From Aureimonas jatrophae (lineage in GTDB: Bacteria; Pseudomonadota; Alphaproteobacteria; Rhizobiales; Rhizobiaceae), in NCBI RefSeq assembly GCF_900104035.1, contig NZ_FNIT01000014.1, positions 1 to 64,000 on the forward strand: a stretch of DNA of 64,000 nt. Reading direction: 5' to 3'. This document shows, piece after piece, positions 31,513 through 50,164 of this stretch. A model generated the notes under the pieces. It made no database searches and was not told the origin of the DNA. It saw only the letters and a program-made list of their open reading frames with translations. Both the position numbers and the translations under genes were made by a program. Within the stretch, counting starts at the first letter, position 1. Every line of letters begins with the position of its first letter.

Positions 31513-31878
31513 ATGCCGCGGCCACAGCTAGAGCCATCGCACATGACCGTCATCCTCCCGTCCGCCGGGTGGTCGGACGAGCTCGACCAAGAGATCGAGC
31601 GCTCCGCCGAACTCCTGCGCGACCTTCGCCATCTGCGCGACCACACCACGCCGCCCCGCAGTGTCCTGGAACGGGCGCCCCTGCTCGACGGCTGGTCGCC
31701 CGCCATCCGGTCTGTCGCCTGCCTCGTCGGCCGGCCCCACGGCCATCCGCGTCTGTCCGGTCGCCGCCCCGCCGCCACCTCGCCGCTCCGCGTCATCTCG
31801 CTCGAGGACGGCTTCGCCCGCACGGAAAGCCGCTTCTATCGCCTCGGCAGGCCCGCGACGGAGACAACCGATGCGTAA
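31513..31878 (+). CDS. DUF6634-type protein
   Basis: This 121-residue protein has a possible internal start at residue 11 (MTVILPSAGWSDE), which would match family starts. The pattern LLDGWSPAIRSVACLVGRPH, then GHPRLSGRR, then TSPLRVISLEDGFARTESRF followed by YRLG is that of DUF6634 proteins found in rhizobial genomes. The stop overlaps the ATG of the AAA-protease gene by 8 bases (ATGCGTAA), so the two are translationally coupled. The function is unknown; the fixed pairing suggests an adaptor or substrate of the protease. Confidence 0.7.
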   Translation: MPRPQLEPSHMTVILPSAGWSDELDQEIERSAELLRDLRHLRDHTTPPRSVLERAPLLDGWSPAIRSVACLVGRPHGHPRLSGRRPAATSPLRVISLEDGFARTESRFYRLGRPATETTDA

Positions 31879-35115: not shown

Positions 35116-35192
35116 GCCGTTACTAAAGCTATCGACGAAAATCCCTTCTCAATCGATGGCATAGATCGACACGGGAATCCCTAGCATTGCTG

Positions 35193-35209
35193 TCTACTAG
35201 ATGAGTAGA
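35193..35209. promoter_or_regulatory. TCTA-N9-TAGA element, copy 1
   Basis: TCTACTAGATGAGTAGA is a 17-bp element with perfect 6-bp arms (TCTACT/AGTAGA) that ends 26 bases before the GTG of the flavoprotein gene. Two further TCTA-N9-TAGA copies precede the next two transcription units at 40834 and 42743. It also fits the T-N11-A shape of LysR sites. Confidence 0.6.
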
Positions 35210-35235
35210 TTGATGGCAGTTCGAAGGGGTAGATC

Positions 35236-36762
35236 GTGGTGGAACTGGTTGATGTTCTCGTTGTAGGAGGCGGCCCCGCCGGATGCTGGGCAGCCATGTC
35301 GGCGTTGGAAGCCGGCGCCTCGGTGATGCTGGTCGAGAAAGGGTACGTCGGCACGGGTGGTGCGACCGCCTCCGGCAACACGACGATCATCTACACGGCG
35401 CGGGGTACTGCCGAGCGCCGCATGTCCGTCGAGCAGCGCGTGCGCCTGGGGCAAGGGCTTGCCGACCCCACGTTCATCGAGCGCGTCCTCGACCGCACGA
35501 AGGAGAACCTCGACCGACTGGCCGACTGGGGTTACCCGTTCCCATCCTACGAGGACGGCCGGCCGTACCGCGGCATGCTGCGTGGCGTCGACTACCTGCG
35601 CTTCCTGCGTCAGCGCCTGATCAAGCGCGGCGCAGCACTGCGCGACCAATGCCCCGCCGATGGTCTTCTAGTCTCTGACGGCATCGTGTCCGGCGCCACA
35701 GGCTACGATCGTCGGACCGGCGAGCGCTGGACGGTCCGGGCGGGCGCCGTGGTGATCGCGACGGGCGGCTGCGCATTTCTTAGCGGCGCGCTCGGCACCA
35801 ACAACCTGACCGGCGACGGTTACCTGCTCGGGGTCGAGGCGGGGGCGCACCTTTCCGGCATGGAGTTCTCGGCGCAATACGGCATCTCGCCAGTCAATTC
35901 CGGCGTTACGAAAGGCGTCGTCTACTTCTGGGCGACCTTCTCCGACGCGTCGGGCCGAGCGCTCGACCTTGCCGGAAACCGCCACGGCATCGCGTGGCAT
36001 CTTCTCGACGGTCCCGTCTTCGCCATCCTCGACAAGGCTTCGCCACGCCTGCGCGAGGGCTTCCGGAAGGGCCAGCCCAACATCTTCGTGCCCTTCGACC
36101 GGATGGGCATCGACCCCTTCACCCAACGCTTCGAAGTCACGATGCGCCACGAGGGCACGGTGCGCGGCACCGGCGGCGTCCTGGCCGACGACCTCGGGCA
36201 GACGACGGTCCCAGGCCTTTATGCCGTCGGCGACGCGAGCTCGCGGGAACGCATGTCCGGCGCGGTGAGCGGCGGAGGCGGTCCGAACTCGAGCTTCGCC
36301 ATGGCGACGGGCTCCTGGGCCGGAGAGGCCGCCGCGGCGTTCGCGTCGGCGCTCGGCGCCCGCAAGCATACCCGGACCGCCGTGCCGGCTGGCGGAGACG
36401 CCGGGAGCGAACGGCAGAGCCCATCGCATGTGGTCGAGGCGGTGAAGGAGCGGATGCAACCGCTCGACCGCGGCTTCTTCCGCGACGAGGCGAGCCTGAC
36501 GGAAAGCGCCGCGATCTTCGAGACGCTGTGGCGCGACCGATCCTGGAGAGGGCCCGGACGGACCCGGGAAGCCGAAGCGCTTCTGGCGACGGCGCGCTGG
36601 GCGACGGCGGCCGCGCTGGCCCGCCGCGAGAGCCGGGGACTCCAGCGTCGGACCGACTTTCCCGATGCCGACCCGAGAAGCCCCCGCAGCCTTCTTGCCG
36701 GCGGCATCGGGGCTGCCTGGGTGCGGGAGACGCCGGGCGCGGAACGGAGGCTGGCATCGTGA
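35236..36762 (+). CDS. FAD-dependent oxidoreductase, AprA/fumarate-reductase-like
   Basis: This 508-residue flavoprotein has a GTG start behind GAAGGGG. The FAD motif is VVGGGPAGCWAAMSALEAG near residue 10 and the second FAD segment is GLYAVGDASSRERMSGAVSG near 325. The overall fold is the FAD_binding_2 family that includes adenylylsulfate reductase AprA, succinate dehydrogenase and L-aspartate oxidase. GTG of the next gene overlaps its stop (GTGA), and that gene encodes a two-cluster ferredoxin, like the AprAB pair. It lies in one operon with a NitT/TauT-type importer, so it may process the imported compound. The substrate is unknown; true AprA residues cannot be confirmed here. Confidence 0.85.
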   Translation: MVELVDVLVVGGGPAGCWAAMSALEAGASVMLVEKGYVGTGGATASGNTTIIYTARGTAERRMSVEQRVRLGQGLADPTFIERVLDRTKENLDRLADWGYPFPSYEDGRPYRGMLRGVDYLRFLRQRLIKRGAALRDQCPADGLLVSDGIVSGATGYDRRTGERWTVRAGAVVIATGGCAFLSGALGTNNLTGDGYLLGVEAGAHLSGMEFSAQYGISPVNSGVTKGVVYFWATFSDASGRALDLAGNRHGIAWHLLDGPVFAILDKASPRLREGFRKGQPNIFVPFDRMGIDPFTQRFEVTMRHEGTVRGTGGVLADDLGQTTVPGLYAVGDASSRERMSGAVSGGGGPNSSFAMATGSWAGEAAAAFASALGARKHTRTAVPAGGDAGSERQSPSHVVEAVKERMQPLDRGFFRDEASLTESAAIFETLWRDRSWRGPGRTREAEALLATARWATAAALARRESRGLQRRTDFPDADPRSPRSLLAGGIGAAWVRETPGAERRLAS

Positions 36763-37097
36763 TCGAGCTCGTCAGCCACGACCGCTGCATCCAGTGCGAC
36801 ATCTGCGTCGCCGCCTGCCCCGACAACGTCTTCGACGCAATGCCGGACGCCCCGCCCGTCATCGCACGGCAGGGCGACTGCCAGACTTGCTTCCTTTGCG
36901 AGCTCTACTGCCCGGTCGACGCCCTCTACGTCTCGCCGCTGACCTACGAGCGCGACGTTGTGTCGGAGGCCGACCTCGTCGCGCGCGGAGTGCTCGGCAG
37001 CTTCCGGCGCGAGATGGGTTGGCGCAACGCCAAGCCCCGCGGCACCCGCGACGACCTCAGCTACCGCATCTTCGAAGCTGGCACGATCGTGCCGTGA
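36759..37097 (+). CDS. Ferredoxin-type protein with two [4Fe-4S] motifs (AprB-like)
   Basis: This 112-residue protein has a GTG start overlapping the flavoprotein stop by 4 bases, behind GGAGG. Two classic cluster motifs are present: CIQCDICVAACP near residue 10 and CQTCFLCELYCP near 45, followed by a C-terminal tail of about 55 residues that ends FEAGTIVP. The size and two clusters resemble the electron-transfer subunit AprB. It should carry electrons between the flavoprotein and an unknown carrier. It is tightly coupled to the flavoprotein gene, and the binding-protein gene follows at 32 bases. Confidence 0.88.
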   Translation: MIELVSHDRCIQCDICVAACPDNVFDAMPDAPPVIARQGDCQTCFLCELYCPVDALYVSPLTYERDVVSEADLVARGVLGSFRREMGWRNAKPRGTRDDLSYRIFEAGTIVP

Positions 37098-37129
37098 CCC
37101 CGTCCCAGACATCCCGGAGGACCCAGTCC

Positions 37130-38188
37130 ATGCGTCGCATCCTTTCGAGCCTCGCGCTCGCTGCCCTTTTTTCGACCTCGCTCCAGGCGATCGCCTCCGC
37201 CGAGGATTTGCCGCAGGTGATCCGCTTGGGCGACGTCGGCTTCGGCTTCGGCACACCCTTCGGTGTGGGACTCCAGGCCATCGCCGATGCCAAGGGTTTC
37301 GTCGCCGACGAGTTCAAGGGAACGCCGGTCAAGCTGGAATGGACCTATTTCACGGGAACGGGGCCGGCGATCAACGAGGCGCTTTCCAACGGCCAGCTCG
37401 ACTTCGCCTCCTATGGCGCGGTACCCAACATCATCGGCAAGGCGCGCGGGCTTCCGACCCGGATCCTCGCCTCCTATGGCGGCACGACGATCTTCGGGGT
37501 GTCGCGCCCCGACATCGACATTAAGGGCGTTGCCGATCTCAAGGGCCGCAAGGTCGCCATCCAGAAGGCGACCATCATCCATTGGGGGTTGATCTCGGCT
37601 CTGAAGTCCGCGGGCCTTACCGAGAAGGACGTGACGATCGTCGACCTGAAGAACGCCGACCAGCTCGCCGCGTTGAGCGCCGGCAGCGTCGACGCGGCCT
37701 TCGGCGCTGACTTTCTCCTGCCACTCGAAGCCAAGGGTCTGGCCAAGGTATTCTACAAGTCCTCGGACCAAGGCGCTTCCGGCGACGGCTTCGGCGCCTT
37801 CCTGGGAACGCAGGACTTCACCGAGGCGTATCCGGAAGCGACCCAGAAGGTCGTCAACGGTCTCGTTCGCGCCGCCGAGTGGCTGGGTCACGACGAGAAC
37901 CGCGAGGACGCGTTCCGGATCTGGAGCCGGGCGGGAACCCCCGTCGAGATCATCCGCAAGGCGAACGAGGGATCGTCCCTCCGCGACAAGTACGACCCGC
38001 GCCTCGACAACCTCTTCCTCGCTCGCTACCGGAGCGGCATAGCCTTCGATCGCGAGCAGAAACTGATCCGCGCCGACGTGGACCTCGACGCCTGGGTCGA
38101 CTCCCGTTTCCTCGACGCGTCGCTGAAGTCGCTCGCTCTCCAAGACTATTGGACGCAACGATCGGCGCCGGCCGCCCTCCAGAACTGA
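37130..38188 (+). CDS. ABC transporter substrate-binding protein, sulfonate/NitT-TauT family
   Basis: This 352-residue protein starts at the ATG at 37130 behind CCCGGAGG. A Sec signal (MRRILSSLALAALFSTSLQA) ends near IASA-ED. The mature N-terminus LPQVIRLGDVGFGFGTPFG and later GQLDFASYGAVPNIIGKARG follow the SsuA/TauA-like fold. It should bind a small organic acid or sulfonate and pass it to the two permeases that follow in the same operon. The linked flavoprotein/ferredoxin pair suggests the ligand then undergoes a redox step. Confidence 0.9.
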   Translation: MRRILSSLALAALFSTSLQAIASAEDLPQVIRLGDVGFGFGTPFGVGLQAIADAKGFVADEFKGTPVKLEWTYFTGTGPAINEALSNGQLDFASYGAVPNIIGKARGLPTRILASYGGTTIFGVSRPDIDIKGVADLKGRKVAIQKATIIHWGLISALKSAGLTEKDVTIVDLKNADQLAALSAGSVDAAFGADFLLPLEAKGLAKVFYKSSDQGASGDGFGAFLGTQDFTEAYPEATQKVVNGLVRAAEWLGHDENREDAFRIWSRAGTPVEIIRKANEGSSLRDKYDPRLDNLFLARYRSGIAFDREQKLIRADVDLDAWVDSRFLDASLKSLALQDYWTQRSAPAALQN

Positions 38189-38197
38189 GGCGGCGCG

Positions 38198-39043
38198 ATG
38201 TCGCTCCAGACCGAGGCGGTCACGACCTCACGCAGGCAAAGGGCGTCGGCAGCGCGCTGGCGCCCGGCCTTGCGCCTGAAGGACTCGGCGGCGGTCCGTT
38301 CGCTTCTGACCCTCATCGGTCCGGTTGCGATCCTCTGCCTGTGGCAGGCGGCGAGCGGTCTGGGACTCATGTCGTCGCAAGTCCTGCCGCCGCCGTCCCT
38401 GGTTTGGGAGACCCTAGTCGATCTCGCGAAAGCGGGCGACCTGTCTGTTAACCTGGCCTTGTCGGCGCGGCGCATCCTCTTCGGGCTCGTAATCGGAGCG
38501 CCGCTCGGCCTTGCCTTTGGCTTGGCGCTGGCCCGATCGCAACGGCTCGAGGACTATCTCGGCCCAACCTTTCGAGCCCTTGCCGCCGTCCCGTCCCTCG
38601 GGTGGATTCCGGCGCTGATCCTGGTCCTCGGCATCGAGGAGTCGCTGAAGATCGTGATCCTCGCCAAGGCCTGCTTCGTTCCGATGGCGATCGCCGCCAT
38701 GGAGGGCGGGCGGGCCGTCCCGCGCGAGCTGTCCGAGGCAGCCGACGTCATGCGCCTGCGGCCCCTCTCCCGGTTCCGCCGGCTGACGCTTCCGGCCGCC
38801 ACGCCGTTCCTGTTCCGCGGCCTGCGCCTCTCGGTCGGTCAGGCCTTCGTGTCGCTCGTCGTGGTGGAGATGCTCGCCGGCACGGACGGCATCGGCTATC
38901 TGATGGTGTGGGGCCGCACGCTCTTCCAGCTCGATCTGGTGATCGCCGGGATGATCGTGGTCGGCGCGACGGGTTTTGCAATCGACTCCTTCCTGCGCCA
39001 TGCGGAGCGGTTGGTCGCGGGTCGGTACGGCGCCGATGTCTGA
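38198..39043 (+). CDS. ABC transporter permease 1, NitT/TauT family
   Basis: This 281-residue inner-membrane permease has about six helices after a 35-residue cytoplasmic tail. The EAA-type loop (LSEAADVMRLRPLSRFRRLT region near residue 178) contacts the ATPase. It starts 9 bases after the binding-protein stop. Its stop overlaps the ATG of permease 2 by 8 bases, so the pair probably forms a heterodimer, in contrast to the single-permease importer at the left end of the window. Confidence 0.88.
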   Translation: MSLQTEAVTTSRRQRASAARWRPALRLKDSAAVRSLLTLIGPVAILCLWQAASGLGLMSSQVLPPPSLVWETLVDLAKAGDLSVNLALSARRILFGLVIGAPLGLAFGLALARSQRLEDYLGPTFRALAAVPSLGWIPALILVLGIEESLKIVILAKACFVPMAIAAMEGGRAVPRELSEAADVMRLRPLSRFRRLTLPAATPFLFRGLRLSVGQAFVSLVVVEMLAGTDGIGYLMVWGRTLFQLDLVIAGMIVVGATGFAIDSFLRHAERLVAGRYGADV

Positions 39044-39833
39044 GATCGCTTCCCCGCCAACGCCTGCCTCCACTGCAAGGCTCCGATACGTTCGGGGCGG
39101 CGCGGTTCCAGCAGCGATGATCCTTCTCTGGATTGCCGCGGTCGCGTCCGGCATCTGGTCGGGACCGCTGGCCGTCTCGCCCGTCGACGTCGCCCTGGCC
39201 CCCTTCCTCGACCCCAACGGACGGCAGGCCTGGGAAGCCCTCGCTCAAAGCCTGGCACGGGTAGCGACTGGAGGAGTCCTCGGAGGCCTGCTCGGTCTTG
39301 CCGCCGGCGCCCTATGCGGACTCTCCCGCTCCGCGGGGCGGGCTCTGTCGCCCCCGCTTCACGCGGCCCGGCAGGTCGCCCTCTTTGCCTGGATCCCGCT
39401 GCTGACAGCATGGTTCGGCAACGGCGAGGCGACGAAGATCGCCTTCACCACCCTTTCGTGCTTCTTTCCGATCTTTCTTGCCACCGAACGCGGCATGCAC
39501 GACGTCCCGCCCCGGCTGGCGGAGGTCGGCCACGCGCTCGCGGTCCGACGCCGGACCCGTCTGCTCAGGCTCGTCCTGCCATCCGCCCTTCCCTCCATCC
39601 GCATCGGCGTCGACGTGGCGCTGATCTCGGCTTGGATCGGCACGGTGGGCGCCGAATATGCCATCGGCAACGGACGGGGCGTCGGCAGCTTCCTTGCCAG
39701 CGCGCGCGACCAGTTCCGCATGGATCTCGTCGCGGTCGGTGTCATCGTCTTGGCCGGGGTGGGCGTTTCGCTCCACGCGCTGTCGCGCGTGGCATTCAAC
39801 CGAATGTTTCCCTGGCTGGAGGCGTCCCGATGA
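39036..39833 (+). CDS. ABC transporter permease 2, NitT/TauT family
   Basis: This 265-residue second permease starts at the ATG at 39036 inside the end of permease 1. It has six predicted membrane helices (first near residue 24). The cytoplasmic loop is LAEVGHALAVRRRTRLLRLV near residue 170. Its sequence is only distantly like permease 1, consistent with a heterodimer. The stop overlaps the ATPase start (ATGA). Confidence 0.88.
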   Translation: MSEIASPPTPASTARLRYVRGGAVPAAMILLWIAAVASGIWSGPLAVSPVDVALAPFLDPNGRQAWEALAQSLARVATGGVLGGLLGLAAGALCGLSRSAGRALSPPLHAARQVALFAWIPLLTAWFGNGEATKIAFTTLSCFFPIFLATERGMHDVPPRLAEVGHALAVRRRTRLLRLVLPSALPSIRIGVDVALISAWIGTVGAEYAIGNGRGVGSFLASARDQFRMDLVAVGVIVLAGVGVSLHALSRVAFNRMFPWLEASR

Positions 39834-40579
39834 GCGCGCTCGAACTTCGCGGCGTCACGAAGGATTACCGGGTGGATGGCCTGCCGGTCCCCGTGCTGAG
39901 AGGGGTGAACCTCGACGTGCAGGAGGGCGAGATCGTCGCGATCCTCGGCGCTTCGGGATGCGGCAAGTCCACGCTCCTACGACTCGCCGCCGGTCTCGAC
40001 CGCGATTATTCGGGAAGCGCGAGAGCGGAGGGACGCGACATCGTAGGGCCCGACACCGACCGCGGCCTCGTGTTCCAGGACCACCGCCTGTTTCCGTGGC
40101 TGACGGCAGCCGAGAACGTCGACCTGGCGCTGGACAGCCTCGGCCTTGACGCGGCGGAGCGGAGCGAACGGGTTCGGCGCCACCTCGACCTCGTCGGCCT
40201 TGCCGAATTCGCACGAGCCTATCCCCGCCAGCTTTCGGGCGGCATGGCCCAGCGCGCGGCAATCGCCCGAGCGCTTGTGACCGAGCCGCGCGTCATCCTC
40301 ATGGACGAGCCCTTCGGTGCACTCGACTCGTTCCTCCGTATCCGCCTGCAAGAGGAACTGCTCCGGATCTGGGAACGCCGCGCCGTCTCTATCGTCATCG
40401 TCACGCACGACATCGAGGAGGCGCTATTCCTAGCTGATCGCGTGGTCGTCATGTCCTCTCGACCCGGACGTATCGTCGAGACGGTGGTCGTCGACGCGCC
40501 CCGTCCCCGCGACCGCAACTGTGCCGAACTGGTCGAACTCAAGCGCCATCTTCTGTCGGGTCTGGGATCGCAGCACTAG
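39830..40579 (+). CDS. ABC transporter ATP-binding protein, NitT/TauT family
   Basis: This 249-residue ATPase has Walker A GASGCGKST near residue 43, signature LSGGMAQRAAIARAL near 131, Walker B VILMDEPFGALD, and switch His in IVTHDIEEALF. It is the last gene of the flavoprotein operon and completes its importer. Its start overlaps the permease 2 stop, so all six genes from 35236 to 40579 are tightly packed and likely one transcript under the element at 35193. Confidence 0.92.
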   Translation: MSALELRGVTKDYRVDGLPVPVLRGVNLDVQEGEIVAILGASGCGKSTLLRLAAGLDRDYSGSARAEGRDIVGPDTDRGLVFQDHRLFPWLTAAENVDLALDSLGLDAAERSERVRRHLDLVGLAEFARAYPRQLSGGMAQRAAIARALVTEPRVILMDEPFGALDSFLRIRLQEELLRIWERRAVSIVIVTHDIEEALFLADRVVVMSSRPGRIVETVVVDAPRPRDRNCAELVELKRHLLSGLGSQH

Positions 40580-40891
40580 CGCGGTCGGGGATGCCTGTTT
40601 GATCTCGCGCTTCCCGATCAGACCGTACGACGCGTTTCATTCGTTGCGAGCCACGAAGGATGCTCGGCCCCGCGGCATGCATGGTCCGCCCGTTCTCTAG
40701 GGAAAAGGAGCCGAGATCGCGTGGTCTTGGCAGCGATCCTGGGCCGACGTCGGAAGGTATTGCCGACTCACGATATGCGCCACGACGATGCAACCGCGGT
40801 CCGGGGCAACGCAACGAACTGCAAGCTCGACAGTCTAGTTTTTTCATAGATAGATAGGGAGAATCAGCGCCGGATTGGCAAGCGAGGGCAT
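40580..40891. other. Intergenic with regulatory element
   Basis: 312 bases between the ATPase and the leader ORF. They contain the TCTA-N9-TAGA element at 40834-40850; nothing else was recognised. Confidence 0.4.
40834..40850. promoter_or_regulatory. TCTA-N9-TAGA element, copy 2
   Basis: TCTAGTTTTTTCATAGA has the same TCTA/TAGA arms and 17-bp length as the copies at 35193 and 42743, with a T-tract in the centre. It lies 105 bases before the ATG of the FAD/NAD(P)-binding protein and 41 bases before the leader ORF. Confidence 0.55.
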
Positions 40892-40951
40892 ATGCAGAGG
40901 TCGGACATGTGGACTGTTGTGGTCCCCTCCGCATCGCACGGCGAGGCCTGA
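40892..40951 (+). CDS. Possible 19-residue leader peptide
   Basis: ATG at 40892 follows GCGAGGGCAT. The frame encodes MQRSDMWTVVVPSASHGEA and stops 4 bases before the ATG of the flavoprotein at 40956. Its position between a regulatory element and the gene suggests a leader or coupling ORF. No run of one amino acid or attenuator hairpin is obvious, so its role is uncertain. Confidence 0.35.
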   Translation: MQRSDMWTVVVPSASHGEA

Positions 40952-40955
40952 CGAG

Positions 40956-42347
40956 ATGCAGGCCGGACGGATCCTGATCATCGGCGGGGGCGCGAGCGGC
41001 GTCTTGCTGGCAGCGCAGCTCCTTCGGGTTGATACGGATAAGGTTGCCGTAACGATCATCGAGCGCCGCGCCGAGATCGGCGCCGGCATCGCCTACTCGA
41101 CCGATCATCCCGACCATCTCCTCAACACCCGCACCGCGGGCATGAGTGCCTTTCCCGATGATCCGGATCACTTCCTTCGCTGGCTTCACGACAACAGCCA
41201 AGACCATACGCAGGACCTTCTCGATCCCGGCGGCTTCGTCCCGCGCCGCCTTTACCGGGACTATCTGCGCGGTCTCCTGGATCCTTGGGCGAATCGTAGC
41301 GACGGTCGCCTTCGCGTCGTACATGGCCAGTGCGTCCGATTGGAGAACACGCCTAGAGCGATCCGCGCGATCCTTGCGGACGGGAGCGTGGAGGAAGCCG
41401 ACGTAGCCGTGCTCGCGACGGGACATGCCGAGCCCCAGCATGCATCCGGCGCCCGCATCTCGGGTCCTTGGTGCAGCGCGGACGAACTGTCGATCGCTCC
41501 TGACGATGCAGTTCTCATACTCGGCACCGGACTGTCGATGGTCGACAACGTCGCGCTTCTGAGAAACCGAGGCCATCGCGGGCCGATCACCGCAGTATCG
41601 CGCCGGGGCCTTCTACCCCGTGTTCACGCATTGACGGCGACGATCCAGATCGAGGTCGCCGACGTCCCCTTCGGCGCCCGGCTCTCGGAGCTGACGCGTT
41701 GGCTGCGACACGCAGCCCGGTCCGCGTCCGAACACGGCGGCGACTGGCGCGGCATCGTGGACGCGCTGCGCCCCCACATGGGCGCTCTCTGGCAGTCCAT
41801 GCCGGTCGAAACGAGACGCCGCTTTCTGCGCCACGGCCGCACGTTCTGGGAAGTCCACCGCCATCGGATGGCGCCGCAGGCCGCTCGCATGATCCGCGAT
41901 GCCATGGCATCGGGGCAGTTGCGGGTGGTGGCAGGTCGCATCCATCCCGGGTCGCTTGCAGGACATGGATCCCGCGTCACGTTGACCGAGCGCGGAGGAG
42001 AAACGCGAACGTTTCCGGCGGATCGCATCATCGACTGCACCGGTATCCTTCGCGATCCCACCACCAGCAGCGGCCATCTCGTTGCCGAGCTGATCCAGGA
42101 AGGTCGCGCTCGCCTCGACCCGCTCGGCATCGGGATCGATGTGCACGAGGACGGTTCGGTTCTCGATTATGCAGGCACGCCCTCGTCACGCCTGTTCGCC
42201 GTCGGGCCGGTGACGCGGGCGCGCTTCTGGGAGATCACGGCGGTCCCCGACATCCGCGTCCAGTGCGGGAAGCTTGCCGCGACGTTCGTGGAAGGCGTGA
42301 GAACGAGCCGGTCTCGGTCAGCGGCGAACCCTTCTTCCAACGCGTGA
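40956..42347 (+). CDS. FAD/NAD(P)-binding protein (NAD_binding_9 type)
   Basis: This 463-residue protein starts at the ATG at 40956 (MQAGRILIIGGGASGVLLAA). The N-terminal dinucleotide motif and the following ERRAEIGAGIAYSTDHPDHL, then LNTRTAGMSAFPDDPDHFLR, are typical of NAD_binding_9 (PF13454) flavoproteins. A second dinucleotide site, LILGTGLSMVDNVALL, lies near residue 187. The reaction is unknown; the family includes hydroxyacylglutathione-like and redox proteins without firm roles. It stands alone between the two importer operons and shares their upstream element, suggesting it belongs to the same pathway. Confidence 0.8.
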   Translation: MQAGRILIIGGGASGVLLAAQLLRVDTDKVAVTIIERRAEIGAGIAYSTDHPDHLLNTRTAGMSAFPDDPDHFLRWLHDNSQDHTQDLLDPGGFVPRRLYRDYLRGLLDPWANRSDGRLRVVHGQCVRLENTPRAIRAILADGSVEEADVAVLATGHAEPQHASGARISGPWCSADELSIAPDDAVLILGTGLSMVDNVALLRNRGHRGPITAVSRRGLLPRVHALTATIQIEVADVPFGARLSELTRWLRHAARSASEHGGDWRGIVDALRPHMGALWQSMPVETRRRFLRHGRTFWEVHRHRMAPQAARMIRDAMASGQLRVVAGRIHPGSLAGHGSRVTLTERGGETRTFPADRIIDCTGILRDPTTSSGHLVAELIQEGRARLDPLGIGIDVHEDGSVLDYAGTPSSRLFAVGPVTRARFWEITAVPDIRVQCGKLAATFVEGVRTSRSRSAANPSSNA

Positions 42348-42742
42348 TCGAGGACTTCAGCTAACCTCTGCCGTGAAGGTGCGGGCGCGGCAGTGAGACA
42401 TTGGTGCCCGGAACGGACCGCGGCCTTGCTCTTCAGAACTGAAAACCGTTCCCTTCCCTCGCAGGCTGAGGCCTGAAACGTCGGAATCGACGGCCTTCCG
42501 CCTGACGCGACCCTACCGGGTTCGACCCTATCTTTGCGCGGCACCGGCTAGGGCGCCCGTGACGCGTGTGATCGCAACCGAACGCGGATCTTGACGGCGA
42601 GCAGGGTCGTCCCCGGAACGGCGCGTCGGTTTGACCGATCGCGAGGACGTTCGGCCAGCCGCCGGCTCCGATGTTGCGGAACAGAAAACTGGAATGTCTT
42701 TTCCTGTCTTGCGGCGACGTCAGCATCGACGTGCTTTTTCAA
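42348..42742. other. Intergenic, nothing recognised
   Basis: 395 bases after the FAD/NAD(P)-binding gene with no supported ORF; the third TCTA-N9-TAGA element starts at 42743. Confidence 0.4.
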
Positions 42743-42759
42743 TCTACAAAAAAGATAGA
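42743..42759. promoter_or_regulatory. TCTA-N9-TAGA element, copy 3
   Basis: TCTACAAAAAAGATAGA matches copies 1 and 2 in arms and spacing, with an A-tract in the centre. It lies 63 bases before the ATG of the peptide-type binding protein that opens the KPN_01854-type operon. Confidence 0.6.
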
Positions 42760-42822
42760 CATTTGGCTCCGGGTCGGCGGTGCCGACGCCCCGAGTGACA
42801 GCCTCTTCGAAGGAACGCCGAC

Positions 42823-44463
42823 ATGATCCGAAGCCCCTTCCCCGCCCTGACCCGCCGTGGCTTCGGCATGATGGCGATGGCCTTGACGCTCGCCGCGTCC
42901 ACGGCCCTCGCGCAGGAGACCCCGAAGACCGGCGGGACGCTGATCTATCTCGAGCAGCAACCCCACACCGTCCTCTACCCTCCGGCCGGTGGCTTCTATC
43001 CGAACGGCGGCATCCTCAATCAGATCACCGACAAACTGACCTACCAAAACCCGAAGACGCTGGAGATCGAACCGTGGATCGCCGAGCGTTGGGAGGTGAA
43101 CACGGATTCCACGCAGTACACGTTCCATTTGCGACCCGGCGTCACCTTCTCCGATGGCACGCCGCTTGATGCCGCGGCCGTTGCCTTGAACTTCGACACG
43201 TTCGGCCTCGGCAACAAGGAGCGCAACTTTCCGGTTTCGGAAGTAGTGAACAACTACGAGCGCTCCGAGGTGCTCGACCCGCTCACCGTACGCTTCCGCT
43301 TCAAGGCGCCGAGCCCCGGCTTCCTCCAGGGCACCTCCGTGATCGGCTCCGGCCTCGTCGCGCCCGCCACCCTGAAGCGCAATTTCGCCGAGCTGGGCGA
43401 CGCCAAGCTGATCATCGGGTCCGGTCCCTTCGTCGTGGAGAGCGAGACGCTCGGCACCGAGCTCGCCCTCAAGGCACGCGAGGACTACGCCTGGGGCCCC
43501 GCGAAGCTTGGGCATCAGGGCCGCCCCTTCCTCGACGCGATCCGCTACGTGATCGTACCCGAGGACGGGGTGCGGATCGGTGCCCTCACCGCGGGACAGG
43601 GCGATGTCGTGCGGCAAATCCAGGCCTATGACGAGGATGGGCTGACCTCGCAGGGATTCACGATCGCCGCCCCCTCGACGCGCGGCGTCAACAATTCCAT
43701 CGTCTTCCGGCCGGACAACCCGCTGGTGGCAGACGCGAAGGTTCGCCGGGCGCTGCTGCACGGGACCGACCGCCAAGCCATCGTCCAGACCCTGTTCTCG
43801 AAGAACTATCCTTTGGCGACCTCGGTGATCGCCTCGACCGCGCTCGGCTACGTTGACCTTTCCGACAAGCTTGGCTTCGATGCGGCCAAGGCCGCTTCCC
43901 TTCTCGACGAGGCCGGCTGGAAGGTCGGTGCGTCCGGTCTGCGCGAGAGGGACGGACAGCGTCTGGAACTCACCGCCTACGAGTCCCTGCCGCAGCCGCA
44001 GAACAAGGCGGCCCTCCAGCTCGTCGCGCAACAATGGGGGACGCTTGGCGTGAAGTTGAACGTGCTCGGCGGCGACGCGGGCTCGGCGGTCGCCGACAAC
44101 CTCGATCCCGCCAAGACCGCCGTCTCGCCGGCCATGGTGGGCCGCGCCGATCCCGACGTCCTGAAAAGTCAGTACTACCCCAAGAACCGAAACGTCCTCC
44201 TCCAGACCGGCGGCGTCAGCGGCAAGGTGAAGAGCTTCCGGGACGACAAGCTGAACGGACTGCTAGAGGGCATCGCGGCGGAGACCGATCCGGAGAAGCG
44301 TTTGGCGCTGGCGGGCGACGTCCAGCGCTACGTCGTAGACGAGGCCTACGCGATCCCGATCTTTGAGGAGCCGCAAGTCTACGGCTCGGCACCCTACGTG
44401 AAGGGTCTTGCCTTCGAGGCCGTCGGGCGCCCGAGCTTCTACGGCGTCTGGCTCGATAAATGA
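42823..44463 (+). CDS. ABC substrate-binding protein, peptide family 5 (KPN_01854-type)
   Basis: This 546-residue periplasmic binding protein of the DppA/OppA class starts behind GAAGGAACG. The signal peptide carries a twin-Arg-like TRRGF before a hydrophobic core and ends at ALA-QE. The mature N-terminus KTGGTLIYLEQQPHTVLYPP and the later VTFSDGTPLDAAAVALNFD are family hallmarks. With the following permeases, fused ATPase, luciferase-like enzyme and two AhpD-like proteins, the order matches the cluster known from Klebsiella as KPN_01854-KPN_01858. The natural ligand is not known. It is coupled to permease 1 by an ATGA overlap. Confidence 0.88.
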   Translation: MIRSPFPALTRRGFGMMAMALTLAASTALAQETPKTGGTLIYLEQQPHTVLYPPAGGFYPNGGILNQITDKLTYQNPKTLEIEPWIAERWEVNTDSTQYTFHLRPGVTFSDGTPLDAAAVALNFDTFGLGNKERNFPVSEVVNNYERSEVLDPLTVRFRFKAPSPGFLQGTSVIGSGLVAPATLKRNFAELGDAKLIIGSGPFVVESETLGTELALKAREDYAWGPAKLGHQGRPFLDAIRYVIVPEDGVRIGALTAGQGDVVRQIQAYDEDGLTSQGFTIAAPSTRGVNNSIVFRPDNPLVADAKVRRALLHGTDRQAIVQTLFSKNYPLATSVIASTALGYVDLSDKLGFDAAKAASLLDEAGWKVGASGLRERDGQRLELTAYESLPQPQNKAALQLVAQQWGTLGVKLNVLGGDAGSAVADNLDPAKTAVSPAMVGRADPDVLKSQYYPKNRNVLLQTGGVSGKVKSFRDDKLNGLLEGIAAETDPEKRLALAGDVQRYVVDEAYAIPIFEEPQVYGSAPYVKGLAFEAVGRPSFYGVWLDK

Positions 44464-45407
44464 CCGGACGTCTCGTCTTGGGTCGCCTTGCACAGGCGGC
44501 CTTCGTCCTCTGGGCGGCCTTCACGGCCTCTTTCGTGCTGCTCCAGCTCATGCCGGGCGACGCGGTGTTGATCCGCTTCGTCGGCGGCGACATGGGGCTG
44601 AGCCCGGAGGCGGTGGCGAACATCCGCGCCTTCTACGGCGCGGACGATCCGGTATGGACCCAATATCTGCGCACGCTCGTCGGCTTCCTCGGAGGCGACT
44701 TCGGCTTCTCGATCGCCTCGGGCGCCTCGGTCGCCGGCGAGATCGCGGCCAACCTTCCCGCAACGCTCTGGCTTTCGGGTCTGGCCTTCGTCGCAGCGAT
44801 CGCCCTGGCGCTGGCCGTCACGCTCCTCGCGACGCTGCCGCCCTTCCGCCTCCTGCGTGAGACCTTCGCGGCGCTGCCGGGTCTGCTCGTCTCGATCCCG
44901 GTCTTCTGGCTTGGCATTGTGCTCGTGCAGATCGTGTCCTTCCGCCTCGGCCTCGTGTCGGTGATCGCCCCGGGACCCTGGGAGCGCCTGATCCTTCCGG
45001 TCGCGGCCATCGCGGTTCCCATCTCCGCGCCGATCGCGCAGATCCTCCTGCGCAATCTCGATGCCCTGTCGACGCAGGGCTTCGTCACCGTCGCCCGCGC
45101 CAAGGGCGCGACGCGGGGCCAGGTCCTCCTGCGCCATACGCTGCGCAACGCGCTCCTGCCTGTCCTCACCATCGCCGGCCTCCTGTTCGGCGAGCTTCTG
45201 GCGGGCGCGGTCGTGACCGAGACCGTGTTCGGCCTCAACGGCATCGGCCGTCTAGCCGAGCGTTCCGTGCGCAACCAGGATGCCGCCGTCCTCCAAGCGA
45301 TCGTCGTGGTCGCGGCGTTCGGCTTCGTCGCCGTCAACCTCCTCGTCGATCTCCTCTACCCCCTGGTCGATCCCCGCCTTTGTCGAACTGCCGAGGTGAC
45401 GGCATGA
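44460..45407 (+). CDS. ABC permease 1, dipeptide/oligopeptide (DppB-like)
   Basis: This 315-residue inner-membrane permease has six predicted helices. It carries the DppB/OppB layout: an N-terminal helix, a periplasmic stretch with QLMPGDAVLIRFVGGD near residue 30, and the EAA-like cytoplasmic loop FVTVARAKGATRGQVLLRHT near 205. It starts in an ATGA overlap with the binding protein and ends in another with permease 2. It forms a heterodimer with permease 2. Confidence 0.9.
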   Translation: MTGRLVLGRLAQAAFVLWAAFTASFVLLQLMPGDAVLIRFVGGDMGLSPEAVANIRAFYGADDPVWTQYLRTLVGFLGGDFGFSIASGASVAGEIAANLPATLWLSGLAFVAAIALALAVTLLATLPPFRLLRETFAALPGLLVSIPVFWLGIVLVQIVSFRLGLVSVIAPGPWERLILPVAAIAVPISAPIAQILLRNLDALSTQGFVTVARAKGATRGQVLLRHTLRNALLPVLTIAGLLFGELLAGAVVTETVFGLNGIGRLAERSVRNQDAAVLQAIVVVAAFGFVAVNLLVDLLYPLVDPRLCRTAEVTA

Positions 45408-46267
45408 GCACCGTGTCCTCCATCGCACCGCTCCCGGACGCGACGTCCCGCACCTTCCGGCCGGGCCGCCTTCGGCACCCGCCGTTCGTCCTCGCGCTGT
45501 CCACGGCCGTGCTGGCGCTCGCGCTTCTATTCGCCGTCGCGCCCTCGCTCTTCAGCGGGCACAGCGCGATCGCCGGACTGGCCGGGCAGCAGTTGAAGCC
45601 GCCATCGATCGCCCATTGGCTCGGAACCGACGAACTCGGCCGCGATGTCTATGCCCGGATCGTGCACGGCGCTCGCTATTCCTTGTCCGGCGCCGCGATC
45701 GCGGTCGGGATCGGCCTCGGTCTCGGAACGCTGGTCGGCCTTCTGGCCGGTGCGCTCGGCGGCCGGACCGACGGCGTGCTGATGCGTCTCGTCGATGTCA
45801 TGCTGGCAATCCCGACCTTGCTCCTGTCGCTCGCCTTCATCGTCATCCTCGGCTTCGGTCATGTGCAGGTCGCGGTCGCGGTCGGTATCACCTCCGTGGC
45901 GAGCTTCGCGCGCCTCGTGCGCTCCGAGGTGATGACGGTCCGCCGGTCCGACTACGTGGAGGCCGCCTTCGGTTCGGGGGGCACCTTTGCCGCGGTGCTT
46001 TGGCGCCACGTCCTGCCGAACTCGATGACGACGGTTCTGGCCTATGCCGCCCTTCAGCTCGGCTGGGCGATCCTCCAGATCTCGGCACTCGGTTTCCTTG
46101 GATACGGCGCGCCGCCGCCAACGCCCGAATGGGGCCTCATGATCGCGGAGGGACGCAACTACATGGCCCGCGCGTGGTGGCTCACGGTCTTCCCGGGTCT
46201 CGCCACCATCGTCGTCGTGCTCGCCGCCAACCGCGTCGGCCGCGCCCTGTCGGGACACGGCCGATGA
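45404..46267 (+). CDS. ABC permease 2, dipeptide/oligopeptide (DppC-like)
   Basis: This 287-residue permease starts at the ATG at 45404 in an ATGA overlap. It has the DppC hallmark after the first helix (HWLGTDELGRDVYARIVHGA near residue 75) and the EAA loop SEVMTVRRSDYVEAAFGSGG near 180. The C-terminal region ends with a short cytoplasmic tail. Its stop overlaps the ATPase start. Confidence 0.9.
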   Translation: MSTVSSIAPLPDATSRTFRPGRLRHPPFVLALSTAVLALALLFAVAPSLFSGHSAIAGLAGQQLKPPSIAHWLGTDELGRDVYARIVHGARYSLSGAAIAVGIGLGLGTLVGLLAGALGGRTDGVLMRLVDVMLAIPTLLLSLAFIVILGFGHVQVAVAVGITSVASFARLVRSEVMTVRRSDYVEAAFGSGGTFAAVLWRHVLPNSMTTVLAYAALQLGWAILQISALGFLGYGAPPPTPEWGLMIAEGRNYMARAWWLTVFPGLATIVVVLAANRVGRALSGHGR

Positions 46268-47889
46268 GCGCCGCACACGCAAGCGTCCCGCCCCTTCGCA
46301 TCGAGGGCCTGAACGTGAGCTACGACGGCCGCGCGGTGGTCCAAGGCGTCGACTTCGCGGTCCGGCCGGGCGAGGTCGTAGCGTTGGTCGGCGAGTCGGG
46401 ATCCGGCAAGACCACGACCGCCCAGGCCCTCATCGGCCTCCTGCCGGCCAACGGGCGCGTCGAAAGCGGCCGCGTCCTGCTCGGCGGCGAGGATGTGTCC
46501 GGCTGGTCGGACCGCCGCCTGTCCGCCCTTCGCGGCCGGGTCGTCAGCCTGATCCCTCAGGACCCCGGCTCCTCGCTCGATCCCGTGCAGACGATCGGAA
46601 CGCAACTCGGGGAGGTCTTCCGCCTCCACGGACATCGCGACAGACGCACCATCCGCGCCGAGGTGCTCGACCTTCTTCGACGCGTCGGCCTATCCGAGCC
46701 GGAACTGCGGTTCGCACAGTACCCGCACGAGCTGTCGGGCGGCATGAAGCAGCGCGTGCTGATCGCCATCGCGCTGGCCCTGAAGCCGCGCCTCGTGATC
46801 GCCGACGAGCCGACCTCTGCGCTCGACGTCACGGTCCAGCGCCGCATCCTGGACCTCATCGACGAGCTACGCCGCGAGCACGGGACGGCCGTCCTTCTCG
46901 TCACGCATGATCTGGCGGTCGCGGCCGACCGGGCCGACCGCATTGTGGTGATGCGCGGCGGCCGGATCGTCGAACAGGGGGACGCGTCCACGCTGCTCTC
47001 GGCACCGCGCGAGAGCTATACACAGCGCCTCTTGAGCGATGCGCCGGCCTTTGCTGCACCCGCGCGGCAGACAACCGCGCCGATCGACGCGCCGCCGATC
47101 ATCGAGGTGGAAGGGCTGGTGCAGGACTTCCCCGCCGGCCGGGGCCGGTCCCGCGCTGTCGACGGCATCGGGTTTCGCATCGCATCCGGTACGACCCACG
47201 CTCTCGTCGGCGAGTCCGGCTCTGGCAAGACTACGACGGGCCGCGCCGTGCTCGGCCTCCTCCAGCCGACCGCGGGTCGCGTCACGGTCGCCGGCCAGGA
47301 CGTCGCGAAGCTGAAGGGGGCGGCTTTGCGCAGCTACCGGCGGACGATCCAGCTCGTCTACCAGAACCCCTTCGCTTCGCTCGATCCGCGCCAGAGCGTG
47401 CGCGAGATCGTGGAGGAGCCGCTTCTCAACTTCGAGCCCGTTTCTCGAGAGGAACGCCGCAGTCGGGTGAGTGCCATCCTCGAACGCGTTCACCTGCCCG
47501 CCGATCTCGCCGAACGGCGTCCCGCCGCCCTGTCCGGTGGCCAGCGCCAGCGGGTGGCGATCGCCCGCGCGCTGATCCTCCAGCCCCGCGTCCTAGTGCT
47601 CGACGAGGCGGTGTCGGCGCTCGACGTCACCGTCCAGGCGCAAATCCTGCACCTCCTCGACGAGTTGCAGCGCGAGCTTGGGCTCACCTACCTCTTCATC
47701 TCGCACGACCTCGCCGTCGTGAGGGCGATCGCCGATACCGTCAGCGTCCTTCGGGCGGGAAAGGTCGTCGAGGAAGGGTGTGTCGAGGACGTCTTCGCCC
47801 GTCCATCCGCCGCCTACACGCGCGAGCTCGTCGACGCCATCCCGGGTCGCCCCCGACCGACATCCTTCCACGAGGTCGCATCCACATGA
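46264..47889 (+). CDS. Fused dual ABC ATPase (DppD-DppF type)
   Basis: This 541-residue protein carries two complete ATPase domains. The first has Walker [10 protein letters not shown] near 43, signature LSGGMKQRV near 158 and Walker [12 protein letters not shown]. The second has Walker A again as GESGSGKTT near 317, signature LSGGQRQRV near 424, and [11 protein letters not shown], where the usual DEPT is DEAV. A fusion of the two peptide-importer ATPases is common in this class. It provides both nucleotide-binding sites for the permease pair. Its stop overlaps the luciferase-like gene. Confidence 0.92.
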
Positions 47890-48908
47890 CCAAGCGCATT
47901 GGGTTCTTTACCCGCATTCTCGACGACGCAGAGCCGGCAGAACGGTATCGGCTGGCCCGCGAGCAGATCGTCTATGCCGAGCGTCTCGGCTTCGACACGG
48001 TCTGGATCGCCCAGCACCACTTCAACCGCGACGAGGGCGGCCAGCCCTCGCCCTTCGTGTTCCTGGCCAACGTCGCCGCGGTGACCTCCCGGATCCGGTT
48101 GGGAACCGGCATCGTGACGCTGCCGCTCGACGAGCCGGTTCGCGTCGCCGAGGATGCCGCCGTGCTGGACGCGCTGTCCGACGGTCGGCTGGAACTGGGC
48201 CTTGGCTCCGGGGGGACCGCCTCCTCGTTCGCCGCTTTCGATCTCGACAGCGCGGAGCGGGGCGCGATCTTCGGGCGCAAGGTCGAGACGCTTCGCCGGG
48301 CGCTGCGCGGCGAAGCGCTGGGCGGCGATAACCGGCTCTACCCCTCGGCCGGCGACCTCGACCGGCGCGTCTGGCAGGCGACCTTCTCCGCGTCGGGCGG
48401 CCAGCGCGCGGGCGAGGCCGGCGACGGGCTGCTCCTGTCGCGCACGCAGCCGCGCCCCAAGGGCCGACCGGATCTGGCGTTGGCCGAACTTCAGCTTCCG
48501 ATCGTCGAGGCCTACCACGCCGCGCTCCCGCCGGGCGTCGCGCCGCGTATCCTCGCCTCGCGCAGTGTCTTCGTCGCTGACCGGCGCGACGAGGCGCAGC
48601 GTCTGGCCGAGATCGGCCTGCGGCGGGTCGCGGCTCACTTCGCGGCTCACGGACACGTGCTGCTCGGCGACGGTCTCGACGATCTCCTGCGCACCTTCGA
48701 CAGCCATGTCGGCACGCCGGACGAGGTGGCGGAAAGCCTGTCGCGCGATGCGACGCTCACGCATGCGACCGAGGTATCGGTTCAGGTCCATTCGATCGAT
48801 CCGCCGCACGCCTCGATCCTGCGCTCGATCGAGCTCTTCGCCGCGGAGGTCGCCCCCGCTCTCGGCTGGCGGGACAGGCCGCGTCCGGTCCTGGCTCGCG
48901 CGGTCTGA
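47886..48908 (+). CDS. Luciferase-like FMN-dependent monooxygenase, KPN_01858-type
   Basis: This 340-residue TIM-barrel flavoenzyme of the bacterial luciferase-like superfamily starts in an ATGA overlap with the ATPase. Segments QIVYAERLGFDTVWIAQHHF near residue 26 and TSRIRLGTGIVTLPLDEPVR near 67, then VLDALSDGRLELGLGSGG, are typical. These enzymes need reduced FMN and oxygen and often cleave C-S, C-N or C-C bonds. With the linked peptide-type importer and two CMD proteins it matches the KPN_01858 family. The substrate is unknown; sulfur release from an imported organosulfur compound is one inference. Confidence 0.88.
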   Translation: MTKRIGFFTRILDDAEPAERYRLAREQIVYAERLGFDTVWIAQHHFNRDEGGQPSPFVFLANVAAVTSRIRLGTGIVTLPLDEPVRVAEDAAVLDALSDGRLELGLGSGGTASSFAAFDLDSAERGAIFGRKVETLRRALRGEALGGDNRLYPSAGDLDRRVWQATFSASGGQRAGEAGDGLLLSRTQPRPKGRPDLALAELQLPIVEAYHAALPPGVAPRILASRSVFVADRRDEAQRLAEIGLRRVAAHFAAHGHVLLGDGLDDLLRTFDSHVGTPDEVAESLSRDATLTHATEVSVQVHSIDPPHASILRSIELFAAEVAPALGWRDRPRPVLARAV

Positions 48909-48932: not shown

Positions 48933-49532
48933 ATGAGCCAACCATCCGCCGACATCATCGACACCTTAGCGGGCGTTCGCGCCGGCTCCGCGCTGGACGC
49001 CATCCGAGCCAAGCGATCCGTCGCACGCGAGAATGCGCAGCGGAGCTACGAGCTTCTGCTTCATCCCGCCGATCCGAGCGACGTGAGCCTCGAGGAGCGC
49101 CGTGCCGTGGCCGCCTTCGTCGCGCTTCTCCATCGGGACGACCCTATCGCCCGGCATTACGTCGACCTCCTTGGTGCGCCCGACCTGAGACGCGCGCTCG
49201 AAGCGGAGGTGCAGGAGGCATCAGCCGAAGGTCCCTATGGCAACTACCCGCCGGGCCCGTTGAGCGGCGAGGATCAGGACGGGCCGGTCTATCACGTGGG
49301 CGAGGACGCACGGGCACGCCTCGGCACTCGTCTCGCTGCCGCGCTGGAGCACGCGCATCTTCTGGTCTTCCACCCGCGTGACGCCAGGGGCGAGGCGCTG
49401 GGCCGCCTGGTCGCCGCGGGCTGGAGTGCGGACGGGATCGTCACCCTGTCGCAACTCGTCTCGTTTCTTGCCTTTCAGATCCGCGCTGCGATCGGACTGC
49501 GCGCGCTGGTCCAAGCCGGAGAAGCCGCATGA
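48933..49532 (+). CDS. CMD-domain protein, Avi_7170-type
   Basis: This 199-residue carboxymuconolactone-decarboxylase/AhpD-fold protein would be cytoplasmic. It matches the Avi_7170 family by context and pattern (IDTLAGVRAGSALDAIRAKR at the start, then SYELLLHPADPS, and a late LSQLVSFLAFQIRAAIGLRA). The AhpD CxxC motif is absent, as it contains no Cys, so it cannot be a thiol peroxidase by itself. It starts 24 bases after the luciferase-like gene and its stop overlaps the next CMD gene. Confidence 0.82.
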   Translation: MSQPSADIIDTLAGVRAGSALDAIRAKRSVARENAQRSYELLLHPADPSDVSLEERRAVAAFVALLHRDDPIARHYVDLLGAPDLRRALEAEVQEASAEGPYGNYPPGPLSGEDQDGPVYHVGEDARARLGTRLAAALEHAHLLVFHPRDARGEALGRLVAAGWSADGIVTLSQLVSFLAFQIRAAIGLRALVQAGEAA

Positions 49533-50164
49533 ACGCTCCCGTCGCCGCTTCGGATGCCTCCGTTCTTGTCAGCCATCCGGACAATCGCGAACCGAGCCGC
49601 TTCACGCAGGACGAATTGAACTGGCTGCCGGCCCTCGCGCCCCTCAAGCTCGATGAGTTGACCGAGCGGCACTACGAAGGCCTGACCGAGAAAAGCCGGG
49701 CCCAGTCCCCCTACTTTCGGCTGCTCGCGCGCGATCCCGAGGTGCTGGGCGCGCGCACCCGCACCGACAAGGACATCTTCTACAACGCGGACGGTGGCCT
49801 GCCGCGTGCCGAACGGGAACTGGCCGCAACCGCCGTCTCGCGCGTCAACGGCTGCATCTTCTGCGCCTCCGTCCACGCCCGCTTCGCGACCCGGCACTCG
49901 GGCCGGCGCGAGGACGTCGACCGGTTGCTCGAGCAAGGGGTGTCGGTGGACCTCGATCCACGATGGAATGCGGTCATCGCCGCGGCCGATCACCTGACGC
50001 GGACGCCGACCGATTTCGGCACCGATGCGGTTGTCAGCTTGCGGCAGGTCGGATTGCGCGACGACGAAGTAGCCGACCTTATCTTCGCGAGCGCCTTCTT
50101 CAACTGGGCCAACCGACTGATGCTTTCGCTTGGCGAGCCTGAGGGTGAGGCACCAAAGGACTGA
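49529..50164 (+). CDS. Alkylhydroperoxidase-domain (AhpD-like) protein, Avi_7169-type
   Basis: This 211-residue AhpD-fold protein has the active segment ELAATAVSRVNGCIFCASVH near residue 95; the CIFC pair and downstream His match the redox-active CxxC-x3-H of AhpD. It starts in an ATGA overlap with the Avi_7170-type gene and ends the operon. In KPN_01854-like clusters the two CMD proteins always accompany the luciferase-like enzyme. It could protect against peroxide made by the flavoenzyme or act on the imported substrate. The role is not known. Confidence 0.85.
   Translation: MNAPVAASDASVLVSHPDNREPSRFTQDELNWLPALAPLKLDELTERHYEGLTEKSRAQSPYFRLLARDPEVLGARTRTDKDIFYNADGGLPRAERELAATAVSRVNGCIFCASVHARFATRHSGRREDVDRLLEQGVSVDLDPRWNAVIAAADHLTRTPTDFGTDAVVSLRQVGLRDDEVADLIFASAFFNWANRLMLSLGEPEGEAPKD

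Follow-up and report, generated by a model that had tools for sequence, protein, structure and literature searches.

What ties together three neighbouring transcription units that are each preceded by the same short palindrome? The question is raised by a stretch of 64,000 nucleotides from Aureimonas jatrophae (contig NZ_FNIT01000014.1, positions 1 to 64,000), referred to below as the window. A first-pass annotation of the window had noticed three 17-bp elements, TCTA-N9-TAGA, upstream of an operon that begins with an AprA-like flavoprotein gene (unit 1), of a gene for an FAD/NAD(P)-binding oxidoreductase (unit 2), and of an operon that begins with the gene of a KPN_01854-type binding protein (unit 3), and had read them as marks of one nutrient-scavenging regulon, perhaps under a LysR-type regulator. 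We think it probable that the three elements serve as operators in a single regulon for sulfur scavenging, controlled by a four-cysteine protein of the Rrf2 family, with repression relieved by sulfur shortage. The sites, their rarity and conservation, the extended consensus, the sulfur-gene context and the association with the Rrf2 gene are results of computation on genome sequences. G, C and L numbers are our handles for genomes, contigs and loci, G000 being the present genome.

The same operator before three units

The elements are where the annotation had placed them, and the same operator stands before all three units (Table 1). They are the only exact matches in the window; 100 dinucleotide shuffles contained 0.07 matches on average, and no shuffle contained three. 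The gap between site and start codon is 26 bp for the flavoprotein gene, 105 bp for the FAD/NAD(P)-binding gene and 63 bp for the gene of the KPN_01854-type binding protein. Sigma-70 scans of the regions upstream of the three units found no promoter-like site. Do the elements stand out in the whole genome, for which the annotation had suggested a scan? In number they do not: among 4,590,703 bases in 25 contigs there are four exact matches, the three of the window and one at C15:493624, and the reversed control pattern has five, so that the raw count gives no sign of enrichment. In placement they do, since three of the four lie inside 7.6 kb and all four precede related or neighbouring units, the fourth standing before a redoxin gene, behind which comes a paralogue (47% identical) of the window's first flavoprotein gene. 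Headed by the redoxin gene, this second flavoprotein cluster (L058:9330-11641; G000:C15, about 491330-493640) has an operator to itself, and G094, G175 and G088 have comparable redoxin-flavoprotein pairs, also with a site.

Could a short AT-rich pattern have produced these matches by chance, so that the units share no control? A genome count of four, not above the control's five, is what such a reading has in its favour; the clustering of the sites in the genome speaks against it, as do two further results. The first is an independent matrix ranking. A 25-bp matrix built from the sites of other genomes (exact-arm sites, near-identical copies removed, with this genome and its congener G079 out and other species named Aureimonas or Aurantimonas in) puts the window's three sites at the top, with scores of 32.5, 24.2 and 21.4; the next non-overlapping match in the window scores 9.2, and the best of 40 shuffles 10.8. 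Over 1.26 Mb of the genome, made up of the window, the end of C18 and contigs C13 and C15, which were picked because they carry the Rrf2 gene and the fourth site, five matches score above 18, against none in three shuffles. These five are the window's three, the one at the C15 flavoprotein cluster, and C13:270646, directly after the Rrf2 gene. Two looser matches in this genome lie at C19:70913 and C23:348990. The second result is the spacing: around 80 named Rrf2 loci, mostly of Hyphomicrobiales, there are 48 occurrences of TCTA-Nk-TAGA with k = 9, and for every other k between 3 and 15 the count is 0-3, although 28 of the 48 are, by hand count, one orthologous Mesorhizobium position, so that the 48 are not independent. 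Chance matching was rejected on the shuffles, the k = 9 specificity and the matrix ranking; because the site is conserved at orthologous positions it is contradicted there as well, and we give it next to no credence.

The consensus of 73 non-redundant sites is a 25-bp palindrome, WWW-N-TCTAY-W7-RTAGA-N-WWW, in which the outer W's and the AT-rich centre are free of the search pattern and the Y and R are partly fixed by it. At the orthologous place of operator 1, before an 89%-identical flavoprotein gene, G079 has TCTATCTTAGAAATAGA, with the arms kept and the spacer changed. Full-length flavoprotein homologues of at least 42% identity occupy 13 loci in 199 family genomes (11 in relatives, 2 here). 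When their upstream regions are compared, as the annotation had proposed for orthologous units, a site is kept in 12 of the 13, scoring above every shuffle upstream of the apparent unit with a matrix that omits the scanned genome; in G057, which is the exception, the score of 12.9 stays below that of the best shuffle (14.3). At 10 of 23 loci of relatives the FAD/NAD(P) homologue has exact sites no more than 1.5 kb upstream. For KPN_01854 homologues the exact-pattern scan found a site at none of four loci, and the matrix found weak sites about 60 bp upstream at seven of eight rhizobial loci, six of them outscoring all 30 shuffles; the eighth locus has no site, and its genome, G026, has no match to the candidate Rrf2 protein (E 1e-30). 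The common operator, the matrix ranks and the conservation support the proposal that the three units form one regulon.

A dense group of sites was met elsewhere, on plasmid pRetNXC12e of Rhizobium etli NXC12, where four exact sites lie in 19.5 kb (L222:11, 739, 1160 and 19085; matrix scores 28.5-33.3). The same 19.5 kb holds a flavoprotein homologue, a dipeptide-type importer and a molybdopterin S/N-oxide reductase.

A candidate regulator of the Rrf2 family

Which protein might read the operator? The annotation had remarked that the regulator is not in the window, and our candidate is indeed encoded outside it, at C13:270172-270624. It belongs to the Rrf2 superfamily (TIGR00738, 106 bits, cut-off 73.3; PF02082, 122 bits, cut-off 30), and it falls below the cut-offs of the equivalog models for CymR (NF047409, the best-scoring named one, 83 bits against 195), IscR (TIGR02010, 69.9 against 207.55) and NsrR (NF008240, 55.7 against 182). 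The solved structures closest to it by sequence include the Rrf2 regulator 4cic and CymR (2y75 and 3t8r). Four cysteines, spaced C-x8-C-x2-C-x5-C, are conserved without exception in the 86 sequences (67 distinct) selected by an N-terminal motif; they may be ligands for an iron-sulfur (Fe-S) cluster or for zinc, or for neither.

Gene order in relatives places the Rrf2 gene among the sites. One such order is that of G176: a site, then an Rrf2 gene, then the homologue of the window's FAD/NAD(P)-binding gene. An Rrf2 protein at least 60% identical to that of G176 is present in 11 of 12 genomes searched, the candidate of the present genome being 62% identical; the twelfth, G159, has a distant Rrf2 protein (38%), a best flavoprotein match of 28% and no FAD/NAD(P) homologue at E 1e-80. 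At 14 of 23 loci of relatives the FAD/NAD(P) gene follows the Rrf2 gene at a distance of 29-296 bp. The strong site C13:270646 comes directly after the Rrf2 gene and before a serine-hydrolase gene (PF06821; L107:2062-2697), and G079 has the same Rrf2/serine-hydrolase order with a weaker site (11.1; shuffle maximum 5.4). The densest cluster seen is on contig C2 of G153 (L296:3567-17960), where five sites lie within 15 kb around an Rrf2 gene.

Do the sites follow the Rrf2 gene across the family? Among the 199 family genomes, the 78 with the gene (at least 150 bits) hold 314 sites and 333 reversed-control matches; the 17 with a paralogous Rrf2 clade only hold 22 and 77; and the 93 genomes above 2.7 Mb with neither clade hold 154 and 487 (237 and 596 if the eleven genomes below 2.7 Mb, omitted from this group, are counted). 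The 150-bit line between the clades was set after the scores had been viewed, in a gap from 154.5 to 142.3 bits. Relative to its control, the site is about three times commoner where the Rrf2 gene is present (Fisher p 5e-20, Mann-Whitney p 7e-12, phylogeny ignored). The paralogous clade raises a further question. Might a protein of this second clade, about 42-50% identical to the candidate, or some other unseen regulator, bind the sites, the candidate Rrf2 gene being a mere target? Sites precede candidate genes too, as they would a target, and a second-clade gene in G153 has a site before it; yet genomes with the second clade only have no site excess over those with neither, and we consider such a regulator improbable. 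The G153 site in question (C2:815628; L297:2629-2645), which lies directly before the second-clade gene, suggests cross-regulation between two Rrf2 paralogues.

How does the candidate compare with known Rrf2 regulators? CymR, the cysteine-metabolism repressor of Bacillus and Staphylococcus, shares with it the Rrf2 fold and a sulfur/cysteine regulon. CymR belongs to another phylum and has other targets, whereas those proposed for the candidate concern sulfonate, sulfone and taurine scavenging. The proteins IscR, NsrR and RirA, which are Fe-S members of the family, resemble the candidate in fold, in having cysteines in the C-terminal half, and in their palindromic operators. The cysteine spacings of IscR and RirA differ from that of the candidate, and the regulons of all three, as usually outlined, concern iron, Fe-S clusters and nitric oxide, not organosulfur. 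The NsrR site, 23 bp with a 7-bp centre in the account given in PMC9338935, is similar in size to the palindrome found here. The same account describes B. subtilis CymR as not binding an Fe-S cluster, and the candidate has four invariant cysteines. Cysteine synthase is named as the sensor partner of B. subtilis CymR in PMC9338935 and PMC2940859; since two cysteine synthase genes adjoin sites, it is worth asking whether the candidate works with cysteine synthase as CymR does. The actinobacterial IGTS8_peg394 of Rhodococcus, a CymR/Rrf2-like protein, was proposed from proteomics and annotation in an account that, where it deals with this protein, gives no operator and says that the neighbourhood is without sulfur genes.

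Sulfur genes beside the sites

What do the genes beside the sites do? Gene calls were simple longest open reading frames (ORFs), sites near a locus edge being skipped, and the neighbour family counts that follow come from loose E-values and overlapping models, partly below curated cut-offs. Four genomes, chosen for a high ratio of sites to control matches, were scanned completely; of their 31 sites, 25 lie between genes and have a start no more than 450 bp away, and in ten hand-picked genomes that lack the candidate gene the same holds for 15 of 29 (p 0.03). The 36 genes adjoining these 25 sites include taurine/sulfonate binding proteins (five members for each of two overlapping models), Rrf2 (3), cysteine synthase (2), an NtaA/DmoA-type monooxygenase (2), SfnB (1) and CysG (1), together with non-sulfur genes such as those for dihydroxyacetone kinase and a murein endopeptidase. 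A mixed set of 61 sites joins all 31 of the four genomes to 8 from loci picked by their flavoprotein and 22 picked by eye, which lean to AT-rich spacers and omit sites of G189, G057, G175 and several others; 53 of the 61 are intergenic with a start within 450 bp. The median distance from site to nearest called start is 51 bp. Among 73 neighbour genes of the larger, partly hand-picked set are SfnG (5), SsuD (4), MsuE (3) and CysG (3 in all), and Rrf2 matches 4 of the 73 in Pfam; a control set of 17 neighbour genes held no recognisable sulfur gene. The sulfur-function genes beside the sites point to sulfur starvation, and they sharpen the nutrient-scavenging theme of the annotation: the nutrient is most likely sulfur.

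Would a LysR-type activator of sulfur-starvation genes, a relative of CysB, Cbl or AsfR, not account for the same sites? The annotation had leaned to such control, and the spacing of the element permits the T-N11-A box of these proteins. The flavoprotein and ferredoxin genes of unit 1 stand with sulfonate-type ATP-binding cassette (ABC) genes, the AsfA/AsfB-type arrangement as judged from models and gene order. The asfRABC cluster of Pseudomonas putida S-313 likewise has a reductase/ferredoxin pair, a binding protein and an ABC transporter, is needed for obtaining sulfur from aromatic sulfonates, and is activated by a LysR-type protein, according to PMC4267179; the comparison, by gene order and description only, makes the unit 1 flavoprotein AsfA-like. 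A further point for LysR control is that the within-genus co-occurrence of the site with the Rrf2 gene is not significant. Against it stand the form of the consensus, a symmetric 25 bp of the Rrf2 kind with an AT-rich centre, and the closeness of the sites to start codons, which suits a repressor. Among the families listed for the adjoining genes it is Rrf2 that recurs: the 25 listed of 62 Pfam families for the 73 neighbours contain no LysR, which leaves at most one match, CysB homologues not having been searched for. Moreover the element tracks the four-cysteine Rrf2 gene in position and, family-wide, in presence. LysR/CysB control is thus disfavoured, and we think it unlikely.

Table 1. Operators and genes of the three units, in window coordinates
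Feature	Coordinates	Strand	Basis
Operator 1	35189..35213 (17-mer 35193-35209, TCTACTAGATGAGTAGA)	.	exact 17-mer; matrix score 21.4, rank 3 in window
Flavoprotein, AprA/fumarate-reductase-like, AsfA-like; first gene of unit 1	35236..36762	+	Pfam FAD_binding_2
4Fe-4S ferredoxin, AsfB-like	36759..37097	+	Pfam Fer4_21
ABC substrate-binding protein, aliphatic-sulfonate (SsuA) type	37130..38188	+	TIGR01728 142 bits (cut-off 163.5); Pfam NMT1
ABC permease 1	38198..39043	+	Pfam BPD_transp_1
ABC permease 2	39036..39833	+	Pfam BPD_transp_1
ABC ATPase, sulfonate/taurine/nitrate type	39830..40579	+	Pfam ABC_tran; SaoA, NtrCD, TauB models below cut-off
Operator 2	40830..40854 (17-mer 40834-40850, TCTAGTTTTTTCATAGA)	.	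exact 17-mer; matrix score 24.2
FAD/NAD(P)-binding oxidoreductase, unit 2	40956..42347	+	Pfam NAD_binding_9, E 5.8e-40
Operator 3	42739..42763 (17-mer 42743-42759, TCTACAAAAAAGATAGA)	.	exact 17-mer; matrix score 32.5, rank 1
KPN_01854-type ABC substrate-binding protein, unit 3	42823..44463	+	TIGR04028 841 bits (cut-off 468.5)
Two ABC permease genes, unit 3	44460..46267 (44460-45407, 45404-46267)	+	ORFs; position as two annotated ABC permeases of Rhizobium sp. BT04
Fused dipeptide-type ABC ATPase	46264..47889	+	NCBIfam dipeptide ABC ATPase models
Luciferase-like FMN monooxygenase, KPN_01858 family	47886..48908	+	TIGR04027 537.6 bits (cut-off 412.9)
CMD-domain and alkylhydroperoxidase-domain proteins	48933..50164 (48933-49532, 49529-50164)	+	TIGR04029 206.1 bits (cut-off 100.75); TIGR04030 264.5 bits (cut-off 233.15)

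All four models of the KPN_01854 transporter/monooxygenase set (TIGR04028, TIGR04027, TIGR04029 and TIGR04030) score above their cut-offs in unit 3. The NCBIfam nadB, frdA and aprA models match the unit 1 flavoprotein below cut-off. In-frame stops occur in eight FAD/NAD(P) homologues, none of them more than 10 residues from the end of the matched stretch. A 19-codon open frame, MQRSDMWTVVVPSASHGEA (window 40892-40951), lies between operator 2 and the start of the FAD/NAD(P) gene and could encode a leader peptide. Upstream of unit 1, an AAA/FtsH-like protein seems to run across the overlapping frames 31661-32821 and 32658-33803 (window 31661-33803), perhaps a frameshifted gene or an assembly error.

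Proposed control and its meaning

How would such a regulon work? We infer that a dimer of the small winged-helix Rrf2 protein physically binds the 25-bp palindrome, that it represses rather than activates, and that the sensed signal is sulfur supply. With ample sulfur the protein would repress the promoters; when sulfur or cysteine becomes scarce it would release the operators, and release would jointly induce the AsfA/AsfB-like pair with the sulfonate-type importer, the FAD/NAD(P)-binding oxidoreductase, and the KPN_01854-type importer with the luciferase-like monooxygenase. A metal or Fe-S centre held by the four cysteines may read the signal, or else a thiol switch. Repression relieved by sulfur shortage seems the likeliest mode because many sites lie near start codons.

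Several points, besides the dependence among the k = 9 sites, weigh against this proposal. The Rrf2 gene is not near the window, and the only strong site beside it here stands after the gene, not before it. No clear site was found with the matrix around the Rrf2 genes of G198 and G175, and no exact-arm site near those of Aureimonas AU20 and S. meliloti ABS7. Six of the 31 sites in the four completely scanned genomes are inside called ORFs, and no recognisable sulfur genes stand beside C19:70913, C23:348990 or the second exact site of G079. Elsewhere KPN_01854 homologues carry only weak sites; in the present genome the KPN_01854 unit is the one with the best-scoring site. Phylogeny is not taken into account in the family-wide p-values, and within the 8 genera that hold both states there is a trend only (27/37 vs 25/53, p 0.23).

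Might Rrf2 control of sulfur scavenging be general in Hyphomicrobiales? Sulfur-regulating Rrf2 proteins are known; what seems new is this subfamily with its operator and regulon, a moderate novelty, and the open-licence papers searched held no description of any of the three in Hyphomicrobiales. The CysB/Cbl/SfnR/AsfR logic is that of gamma- and betaproteobacteria. We tentatively suggest, at somewhat less than even confidence, that a four-cysteine Rrf2 subfamily, apart from CymR, IscR and NsrR, replaces this logic as the master regulator of organosulfur scavenging in Hyphomicrobiales, acting through one 25-bp operator. If so, success or failure in assembling its own Fe-S cluster may tell the protein how much sulfur is available.

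The regulation of sulfonate, taurine and sulfone scavenging in Hyphomicrobiales, that is, in rhizobia, Aureimonas and their relatives, is not described in the literature searched. Now that an operator and a candidate regulator can be named, sulfur control in these bacteria is open to direct test. Both can also guide searches for organosulfur genes that are still uncharacterised, among them the KPN_01854 set and the regulator's FAD/NAD(P)-binding partner.

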